A DNA stretch of 40,295 bases. Origin: Deltaproteobacteria bacterium. Lineage in GTDB: Bacteria > Desulfobacterota > Syntrophia > Syntrophales > JACQWR01. Position 1 is the stretch's first letter. Each line of letters starts with the position of its first letter. The stretch spans positions 1 through 40,295 of the forward strand of contig JAPLJV010000035.1 of the NCBI GenBank assembly GCA_026388415.1, in the 5' to 3' direction. Below the pieces are notes generated by a model that saw only the letters and a program-made list of their open reading frames with translations, was not told where the DNA came from and made no database searches. Positions 5,019-12,601 of this stretch are shown piece by piece. The position numbers and the translations under genes are program-made.

Positions 5019-5034
5019 AAAAAGGGCTCCGCCC
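5019..5034 (-). terminator. Hairpin with T-run downstream of the DUF1566 gene
   Basis: On the minus strand GGGC-GGA-GCCC is followed directly by five T residues. It lies about 48 bases beyond the stop codon. It reads as a small intrinsic terminator. In diversity-generating retroelement targets a hairpin also sits shortly downstream of the variable region, so it could have that role. Confidence 0.5.
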
Positions 5035-5081
5035 TGTACCCGATAAAAGAAAATGATCAAAGAACCAAATGGCCAAATAGT

Positions 5082-5609
5082 CTATTTGCCAGAACGCACC
5101 GGGAGAGCCCGGTCTAAGTTGTCGCGAAACTGGCGAAGCCAACTCCTGTCGCCATTGAAGAAATTGAAGAATGCAGCCTCGGAACCGCGTGTTTCAGAAG
5201 CCCAATGACCAGTACAAGTTAGACGAATCAAATCCGTTAAATGAACGTCATATCCACATGCAGGCTTATAAGTTTTAGCCTCATCATGCAACCCAGCCAG
5301 TTCGTCCTGAGTCGGCATCCGCCAGTCCGTATAACCGCCGCCACGGTAATTCTAGCAATGGTGCTTGGCACCTTGCCAGTTAATTTGCGATCCGTTGTCC
5401 TTCGCTGCCCACATCAGACCTGTCCGTGTGTCTATGACCGTCCCGTCGTCATAAGTGGTAAAGCGGCCGTCTTTGCCGATTTCCTTTCTGGCCAGCAATC
5501 TTGCCGCCATCTTGCTTGCTTCCTTGGCCGCTGCCTCTTCTTGCTGGAATTTCGTAAACTGAGCAATCTCAGTAAATATTTTTGGCTGCTCAAGACCAAA
5601 TTCCCGCAT
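5082..5609 (-). pseudogene. DUF1566 (Lcl C-terminal fold) protein interrupted by in-frame TAG
   Basis: Two open pieces lie in the same frame: 5609-5352 (starting MREFGLEQPK) and 5351-5082. The first ends WQGAKHHC then TAG. The second continues NYRGGGYTDWRMPTQDEL, exactly the conserved course of the DUF1566 domain, so one base change made the stop. Further down, WASETRG and the terminal RALPVRSGK complete the C-type-lectin-like fold. The frame is also open upstream to about 5697 (…HHERTLESAGLIRAG…) without a usable start, so the N-terminus is probably lost as well. Such domains are generally extracellular or ligand-binding. Translation restarting at the ATG at 5318 would give only a 78-aa tail. 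Confidence 0.7.
5085..5183 (-). other. Candidate variable region of a DUF1566 protein
   Basis: The last 33 codons before the stop combine a conserved frame (GSEAA, NG, RALPVRSGK) with a block of mostly NNY codons (ttc, aat, gac, agt, ctt, cgc, ttt, gac, aac). This is the pattern left when adenines of AAC/AAT template codons are randomised by a diversity-generating retroelement. One codon (tta) does not fit. A T-rich tract with ATTTGG-type units follows the stop. No template is in the window, so this is an inference. Confidence 0.4.
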
Positions 5610-5779
5610 TTCCTTCGTCCCCGCTCTAATAAGTCCAGCACTCTCAAGTGTTCTTTCGTGGTGTGATTGTACAACAGGGGCTGAAATAAATCATCTTTTT
5701 ATTTAAGCTCACCGCAGGTCACGTTATGAACGATAGATACCTGACCCCATCTCTATGGAAAGAAAGGGGAAGGAGAATA

Positions 5780-10795: not shown

Positions 10796-12601
10796 ATGAA
10801 GAATCGCTTACTGATAGCCGTTATATGTTTTACGGCCTTGATGTTTCTCACCAGCACGGCGTTTGCCGCCGAGAAGCGCCGGGTGGAGGTTAAAGCCAAA
10901 AGCGCTTCCCAATCCGCCGAGCACCGGATCGCGCTGGTCATCGGCAACGCGAACTACCGCATCGGCGCCCTGCGGAATGCTGCCAATGACGCCCGTGCCA
11001 TCGCGGCGGCCCTCCGGGAACTGGATTTCGAGGTGGATGAGCAGATCAATCTGAGTTATCAGGAGATGGGCCGGGCGGTCAACCGCTTCGGGCAGGGCAT
11101 CCGCAAGGACAGCGTCGCCCTCTTCTACTATGCGGGGCATGGCCTCCAGGTACAAGGGAGCAACTACCTCGTGCCGGTGGATATGGAAATCCAGAACGAA
11201 GGCGAGGTGCAGTCAAACACGGTCAATGCGGGGCAGGTGCTCGCCAAGATGGGAGAGGCGAAAAACCCCGTAAACATCGTCATTCTCGATGCCTGCCGGG
11301 ACAACCCCTATGTGCGCGGCTTCAAACGGTCGTCGGGCAATCGCGGTTTAGCGCCGATGAATGCACCGGTGGGTTCTTTCGTAGCCTACGCCGCCACGCC
11401 CGGCAAAACGGCCGGCGACGGCAAGGGGAAAAACAGCCTCTATACGGAATCCCTTATCCGGCAGATAAGAACGCCGGGAATGAAGATCGAAGACGTCTTC
11501 AAGCGGGTGCGCACGGAGGTGCGCAGCAAGAGCAAGGGCGGCCAGGTGCCTTCGGAGCGGTCGTCGCTGGAGGGGGATTTCTATTTTGCCAGAGGTAGTA
11601 TGGTTGCAAAAGGGACTCCCGCTCCATCAGCAGTTAAAGAAACAGCGTCGGGAATGCTGACCGTCAAGAGCAATGTGAGCGGCGCCAAGGTCTATATTAA
11701 CGGCGCTTATGAAGGCGATACGCCGCATACTGCCACCTTGAAACCCGGCGCCTATGCTATCATCCTGAAGAAGGCGGGCTATCCCGACGCCGCCGAAGAA
11801 GGAGTGCGCGTCGAGGCGGGCGGCGCCAATACGATCAGCATCGTCATGGAAAAACCCGCTCCGCCGTCGGCAGAGGCCCGAACGTTCACGAGTCCCACTT
11901 TGGGAGCAACATTTGCGCTGATACCCGCAGGGACGTTTACGATGGGATCGCCGGCCGGAGAGCCGGGCCGGTATGATAATGAGACGCAGCACCAGGTGAC
12001 GATCAGCCGGCCTTTTTATCTGCAAACAACGGAGGTAACGCAGGGTCAGTGGCAACAGGTTATGGGGAATAATCCCTCTTATTTCAAGAAATGCGGCGCT
12101 GACTGCCCCGTAGAAAAGGTATCCTGGAACGATGTTCAGGAATTCATCCGGAAGCTAAATAGTATGGAGGGAACGGACAAATACCGTTTGCCCACGGAGG
12201 CCCAGTGGGAATATGCGGCCCGGGCGGGGACGCAAACACCTTTCAGTACGGGTGTCTGTCTTGCTACCGGCGAGGCCAATTACAATGGGAATTACCCTTT
12301 AGAGGGCTGCACCAAAGGAGAGTATCGCCAGAAGACGATGCGGGGGGGCAGCTTTGCACCCAATGCCTGGGGCTTGTATGACATGCACGGGAATGTCTTG
12401 GAGTGGGTTCATGACTGGTATGGTAATTACCCATCGGGCAGTGTAACCGATCCGGAAGGTCCCTCATCGGGTTCGGGCCGCGTCGGTCGCGGTGGCTCCT
12501 GGTTCTACAGCGCCAGGAATATCCGCTCCGCGTATCGCGACCGCGACTTTCCGGGCTACTCCTACAGCTTCCTGGGGTTTCGTCTCCTCAGAACACGTTA
12601 G
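10796..12601 (+). CDS. Secreted caspase-like / PEGA / FGE-sulfatase domain protein
   Basis: A 601-aa multidomain protein. A signal peptide covers residues 1-24 (…STAFA-AE). A caspase-like peptidase (C14) domain spans about 43-265, with both catalytic residues: His115 in FYYAGHG and Cys167 in ILDACRDNP. A PEGA domain (about 285-350; SGAKVYINGAYEGDTP) should act as a beta-sandwich spacer. A formylglycine-generating-enzyme-like domain (about 370-600) shows TMGSPAGE, EVTQGQWQQVMGNNPSYF, YRLPTEAQWEYAARAG, GNVLEWVHDWYG and a C-terminal RGGSW…GFRLLRT. Such domains usually bind ligands through the C-type-lectin fold rather than oxidise cysteine. The C-terminal 35 residues resemble a diversified region. 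GGGAGG precedes the ATG by six bases. An NTF2-like and a DUF4384 gene follow. Confidence 0.9.
   Translation: MKNRLLIAVICFTALMFLTSTAFAAEKRRVEVKAKSASQSAEHRIALVIGNANYRIGALRNAANDARAIAAALRELDFEVDEQINLSYQEMGRAVNRFGQGIRKDSVALFYYAGHGLQVQGSNYLVPVDMEIQNEGEVQSNTVNAGQVLAKMGEAKNPVNIVILDACRDNPYVRGFKRSSGNRGLAPMNAPVGSFVAYAATPGKTAGDGKGKNSLYTESLIRQIRTPGMKIEDVFKRVRTEVRSKSKGGQVPSERSSLEGDFYFARGSMVAKGTPAPSAVKETASGMLTVKSNVSGAKVYINGAYEGDTPHTATLKPGAYAIILKKAGYPDAAEEGVRVEAGGANTISIVMEKPAPPSAEARTFTSPTLGATFALIPAGTFTMGSPAGEPGRYDNETQHQVTISRPFYLQTTEVTQGQWQQVMGNNPSYFKKCGADCPVEKVSWNDVQEFIRKLNSMEGTDKYRLPTEAQWEYAARAGTQTPFSTGVCLATGEANYNGNYPLEGCTKGEYRQKTMRGGSFAPNAWGLYDMHGNVLEWVHDWYGNYPSGSVTDPEGPSSGSGRVGRGGSWFYSARNIRSAYRDRDFPGYSYSFLGFRLLRTR
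12482..12598 (+). other. Candidate variable region at the end of the FGE domain
   Basis: Within the conserved frame RGGSW…ARNIRSA.R.R…P…LGFRLLRTR, the residues usually diversified by retroelements are all encoded by NNY codons here (ttc, tac, agc, tat, gac, gac, ttt, ggc, tac, tcc, tac, agc, ttc), as expected from AAC/AAT template codons with randomised adenines. Caveat: F, Y, D and N have only NNY codons and are also common here in non-diversified family members. No template repeat or reverse transcriptase is in the window. Confidence 0.45.

Follow-up and report, generated by a model that had tools for sequence, protein, structure and literature searches.

Remains of a diversity-generating retroelement target in a broken DUF1566/Lcl_C gene of a deltaproteobacterium, with variable tails that appear frozen among its relatives

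DUF1566 is among the commonest target domains of diversity-generating retroelements (DGRs), and several variable regions (VRs) per element are common, according to the relevant sections of surveys of human microbiomes and genomes (PMC4159848, PMC6642488). Orthocaspase-lectin targets are known from cyanobacteria, and the cyanobacterial gene all3226 is described as a target paralog that keeps remnant homology between template repeat (TR) and VR with no reverse transcriptase (RT) nearby (PMC7517822). The part of the DiGReF survey that deals with inactivated DGRs reports RTs broken by a stop, an insertion or a frameshift (PMC3521204), and other DGRs are reported, in the passages we cite, to act in trans on remote targets (PMC10907252). 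Our literature search returned no paper joining DGRs with Syntrophaceae or Syntrophus. The locus described here lies in a stretch of 40,295 nucleotides from a deltaproteobacterial genome, which we call the window, and its features are collected in Table 1.

Table 1. Features of the window that bear on the two candidate variable regions
Feature	Coordinates	Strand	Basis
VR of a DGR	5080..5188	(-)	Encloses the earlier 5085-5183; DNA match to TR locus L129 79%; adenine-specific differences, 15/27 against 7/44
DUF1566/Lcl_C target-gene remnant	5082..5609	(-)	Two ORFs, 5352-5609 and 5082-5318, with a stop between
In-frame TAG inside the Lcl_C domain	5352..5354	(-)	Translation; sense codon at the same place in L002 and L003
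T-rich tract with ATTTGG, common to many relatives	5036..5081	(-)	22/46 tails carry ATTTGG at most 40 nt past the stop
Hairpin AGGGC(GGA)GCCCT, 3' of the VR, a candidate for either a terminator or the target hairpin of a DGR	5023..5035	(-)
Probable VR belonging to another DGR, of the FGE type	12478..12596	(+)	3' end of the caspase-PEGA-FGE gene 10796-12601

Read on the minus strand, the tail of the window gene is GSEAAFFNFFNGDRSWLRQFRDNLDRALPVRSGK followed by a stop, and by translation the VR reaches the stop codon. The source genome (2.79 Mb in 66 contigs, a draft that is 98.1% complete) has four tails of the Lcl_C type, namely, that in the window, L002, L003 and L007, all with common fixed residues and variable codons in between. 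L002 on contig C63 and L003 on contig C32, which is a caspase-Lcl_C fusion, are intact Lcl_C genes, while L007 on contig C43 is a tail fragment that was detected by DNA only and is separated by a stop from the preceding lipoprotein-like ORF. One scan of named genomes with the alignment of three own copies as the query gave 45 loci, mostly from MAGs of Syntrophaceae and other deltaproteobacteria. In their tails WASETRG, F.F, G.R.W and RALPVRSGK are mostly retained, and the variation falls on the same codons. That GSEAA and RALPVRSGK are largely fixed and that the codons between them mostly end in C or T, as the preliminary description had observed, was thus confirmed among the relatives. The variable codons mostly end in the same pyrimidine, place by place, and therefore the template is predicted to carry AAC or AAT there. 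Six loci (L216, L204, L184, L213, L214 and L210) each have a pair of VR-like tails spaced by 500-580 bp, in tandem domains or tandem genes, and L053 apparently has two within one ORF. In L049 (5290-5419) the VR is not terminal, and the ORF runs about 42 residues further into a lysine-alanine-rich tail. The search for plasmid relatives of the L002 domain gave no match; in viral contigs the TR pattern had 0 matches and no match of the target alignment was confirmed.

A TR that matches the window VR was found in two of the 34 genomes covered by the TR search, G076 and G081. In both the order is target, Avd gene, TR and RT, with the TR directly upstream of the start of a DGR RT and downstream of Avd. 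The Avd proteins match PF22296 (2e-12 and 1e-13) and phrog_3206, an Avd protein of DGRs (2e-21), and the RT matches phrog_1423 (5e-64). The RT of G081 is open up to the contig end and has the motif LPIGNYTSQ, of the IG..SQ type, while similarity in the RT of G076 ceases after about 55 codons, ahead of that motif. This break lies in L143 (4301-5083), and the ORF that follows it, from 4523, looks by inspection like a small transposase. The target L077, which stands beside its own TR, has a 1-base shift in its VR. Thus, the DGRs of G076 and G081 look damaged too. Further DNA matches (L172-L219) gave no TR outside these two genomes; G073 has another, DUF1566-like TR that adjoins an RT. RVT_1 is present in 26 of the 60 closest relatives. 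Of the 30 RT loci that were inspected by motif, as read by a script, most are of the QG...SP class, which marks group II intron-like or other RTs, and two (L031 and L032) are DGR-like. The related RT found 71 records among phages, all below 60% identity, and so phage DGRs are merely distant relatives.

The comparison of the window tail with these templates showed changes at 15/27 adenines and 7/44 other bases of TR_L129 (p = 6e-4), and at 14/26 adenines and 7/45 others of TR_L134 (p = 9e-4). The window sequence upstream of the tail, used as a control, has no adenine bias (25/80 adenine against 57/212 other, p = 0.27). Against TR_L129, the other own copies differ at 17/27 adenines and 5/44 other bases (L003), 25/27 and 8/44 (L002), and 18/27 and 8/44 (L007). 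Targets beside their own TR gave 17/27 and 1/44 (L066) and 14/26 and 1/45 (L077). The window tail also differs from its paralogs mainly at template-adenine sites: 16/26 of these and 7/40 others for L003, 18/26 and 8/40 for L007, and 19/26 and 11/40 for L002, with p from 8e-5 to 3e-4. Of the 48 tails examined, all except L089 (p = 0.09) and L090 (p = 0.44) had changes concentrated at adenines; L092, at 34% identity, is outside the tail set. Pooled over the 28 tails that align with TR_L129 without gaps (20 of 48 being left out), the changes were A 475/756, C 109/588, G 40/336 and T 57/308, and in the upstream control of 46 rows the fractions changed were A.28, C.34, G.22 and T.26. At the ten AAY template codons of the same 28 tails, positions 1 and 2 were changed in 376/560 cases and the third base was that of the template in 223/280. 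This is the reverse of ordinary upstream divergence, which favours third positions (151, 152 and 528 of 1482 for codon positions 1, 2 and 3, with 7 of 47 rows excluded). Aligning the tails and looking for shared flanks with variation at template adenines, as the preliminary description had proposed, therefore came out strongly in favour of its reading; neither a match to undiversified relatives nor one ordinary substitution pattern, which it had named as grounds for giving that reading up, was found. The window tail is almost certainly a VR of DGR origin. The TR is a foreign one, from other MAGs. The seven non-adenine differences from it are more than an active VR has, and we read them as template drift and decay.

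In the source genome, RVT_1 had 0 matches in a search that was positive in 3 of 14 control genomes, and the related RT had no match at E<=0.1. DNA and pattern searches of this genome for the TR returned only VR copies or chance-level matches, and at E<=1e-8 the TR as a query found only the VRs of the window and C32. A search with bAvd, in which no control genome was positive, had 0 matches, and tblastn of the genome stretches beside the four own copies for RT and Avd remnants gave chance-level matches only (E>=1). The preliminary description had inferred from the window a genome with a multi-target retroelement, which these searches do not support. A target family in several copies, four tails with that of the window as a VR, does exist, but no RVT_1, close RT, TR or Avd was found to go with it. 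As for the window gene, Pfam Lcl_C (PF07603, the DUF1566 family) matches it at 5130-5444 with one TAG within, and its homology to the relative L048 is confined to 5063-5623, whereas L002, an intact paralog, is 488 amino acids long; the N-terminal part is absent from the window gene. The interruption of the reading frame upstream of the tail and the truncation of the gene go beyond what had been described. Because of the in-frame TAG and the homology that ends near 5623, the window copy is most likely a fragment with a stop, that is, a pseudogene. An error of assembly may account for the TAG, though not for the missing N-terminus.

Comparison of orthologous tails gave a different picture from that of paralogs. 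Between paralogs within one genome 13/26 to 24/26 adenine sites differ (50-92%). Among the orthologs L002, L048 and L049, the differences at template-adenine sites are 1/26 (L002/L048), 1/26 (L002/L049) and 0/26 (L048/L049), with 6/40, 6/40 and 2/40 at other sites. For L068/L070 they are 0/26 and 2/40, and for L058/L069 1/26 and 5/40. The 22-codon VR core has 1-3 amino-acid changes in these ortholog pairs. The neighbourhood is conserved over 6.6 kb at 91% for L068/L070 and over 3.6 kb at 88% for L058/L069; L002, L048 and L049 have little in common beyond the gene itself, so that transfer is possible there. Since orthologs are nearly identical at former adenine sites, these genes have seen no DGR activity from the time that the copies separated. 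These VRs thus appear, from the alignments, to have been diversified once and then frozen, and the few pairs at hand suggest that selection may maintain the residues of the frozen VRs.

The explanation that best fits these results, and one that we hold with considerable confidence, is that the window tail is a DGR VR whose retroelement has been lost from the lineage or is missing from the assembly, the window copy being a pseudogene and the VRs of two intact copies being fixed. Going by published accounts of how DGRs work and by the cassettes of the relatives, an error-prone RT with Avd would have copied a noncoding TR into several DUF1566 genes in an ancestor, and random bases placed where the TR has adenine would have varied the binding face of the C-type-lectin-like domain. 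The retroelement would then have been lost, or at least is absent from the assembly; the window copy would have lost its N-terminal part and gained the in-frame TAG, while L002 and the caspase fusion L003 would have stayed whole, with tails that no longer vary. A tail of this kind could in principle arise without any retroelement, through ordinary divergence or through diversifying selection that acts on a loop of the lectin, and variation is expected in a region that sits in a C-type-lectin-like fold. This is extremely improbable because the comparison with the TR contradicts it: the changes track, base by base, a noncoding template beside an RT, and they spare third codon bases and alter first and second ones, unlike the upstream pattern. 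It is also improbable, though less so, that the locus is not a pseudogene and that a short standalone product, a small lectin-like piece from 5318 or 5609, is functional. In its favour, the last 78 codons form an open frame that begins with an ATG, and the VR is well preserved, but the TAG cuts the Lcl_C domain and neither ORF contains a complete one.

The alternative that deserves more weight is that a DGR is still working, with its RT and TR in the unassembled part of the genome and acting in trans on dispersed targets that include the intact copies. An unassembled RT could so act because the genome is a draft of 66 contigs and the cassettes of related MAGs are on short contigs, the RT being at or near the contig end in G076, G081 and G062; other DGRs have been reported to reach distant targets in trans (PMC10907252). 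Thus, it is possible that the DGR cassette was lost to assembly. On the other hand, no RT was found in the genome and no relative of RT or Avd around the four own copies, two of these copies are broken, and the VR of L002 is nearly unchanged at template-adenine sites among three genomes. We therefore consider a working DGR unlikely, and it is very probable that the source genome holds a fossil rather than a live element that was not assembled.

The preliminary description had linked the DUF1566 tail with another candidate in the window about 7 kb away, the tail of an FGE gene, as targets of a single element. This is not supported, since the FGE tail fits a TR in G067 (L149) that belongs to a DGR of the FGE type, and it differs from that TR at 17/31 adenines and 23/88 other bases (p = 0.004). 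The FGE tail was probably diversified as well, from a different TR than the DUF1566 tail, and one element serving both candidates was dropped as an explanation. The two candidates are better read as the remains of two DGRs.

The T-rich ATTTGG tract and the hairpin after the window tail are present as first described. Of 46 tails, 22 have ATTTGG no more than 40 nt past the stop (mean 0.9 and maximum 4 in mononucleotide shuffles), and 9 have a GC-rich hairpin inside 90 nt (mean 0.6 and maximum 3 in the same kind of shuffles), so both recur more often than by chance. The stem AGGGC/GCCCT is identical in L053, L063, L064, L066, L077 and L083. Target hairpins of phage DGRs are described, in the relevant part of PMC3240598, with a stem of 7-10 bp and a 4-nt GRNA loop, 4-34 bp from the VR; that of the window has a stem of 5 bp and a loop of 3 nt, lies some 45 nt away from where the VR ends, and scores as a terminator too. 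In L053, L066 and L077 no T run follows the hairpin, and this favours a target hairpin in the DNA over a terminator. As to the fold, the AlphaFold2 model of the L003 domain (pLDDT 95.5) is nearest in the PDB to the C-terminal domain of Legionella Lcl (8q4e, Z 12.7, rmsd 2.5, 111 aligned, VIA-align), and its structural matches also include two DGR proteins, Mtd (1yu0-1yu4) with Z about 9 and TvpA (2y3c) with Z 8.7. When PDB sequences were searched with the domain alignment, nothing was returned at E<=0.001. The VR domain of the intact paralog L003 is thus predicted to have the C-type-lectin-like fold that had been ascribed to DUF1566/Lcl_C; in the window the ORF is broken.

In a survey of the order, a DNA match to TR/VR was found in 23 of 155 genomes and a close RT (E<=1e-80) in three (G138, G125 and G167); of the 23, two have such an RT and 21 do not, and since no more than five candidates were scored per genome these absences are not firm. 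The matches of G138 and G167 are identical to those of G081 and G062, at the same coordinates. In G062 (L217, 436-2472) and G125 (L261) a target VR is joined straight to the start of an RT, without Avd and TR, and the RT of G125 has an in-frame TGA and a start that does not align as ATG. VR-TR recombination or a collapsed assembly could explain these junctions. We tentatively suggest, as a view that is more doubtful than our main reading, that the DUF1566 DGR may be largely extinct across the order and may have left a frozen repertoire that was randomised once and then fixed, with selection preserving the formerly variable residues. VR-TR recombination that removes Avd and TR might be one way of loss, for which G062 would be an example and G125 another, there with an RT that has decayed. 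The system itself is of a known kind and the freezing is the interesting part: DGRs have mostly been studied while running, and the fate of a diversified protein after loss of the machinery is rarely documented in the literature that we consulted. Frozen orthologous tails make it testable whether a binding surface that was found at random is later kept by selection. As 21 of 23 genomes had no close RT, surveys that take the RT as their starting point may well overlook genomes that retain diversified proteins.

The closest DGRs are those of the related MAGs Loclat_bin-13126 and K_DeepCast_150m, which have the same target family and a TR that matches the window VR (79% at the DNA level for L129); TR and RT sequence are present in both of them, whereas neither was found in the source genome. 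The DUF1566-target DGRs of the surveys were called from TR/VR or from RT, in the sections cited (PMC4159848, PMC6642488), whereas the VRs of the source genome are orphaned. The inactivated DGRs in the DiGReF section have intact TR/VR pairs and were inactivated recently (PMC3521204), whereas the source genome has neither RT nor TR in its assembly and its VRs have gathered changes at non-adenine sites. The section on all3226 contains no comparison of frozen VRs between species, and that gene and the window gene, from different clades, are alike in being target remnants with no RT nearby (PMC7517822).
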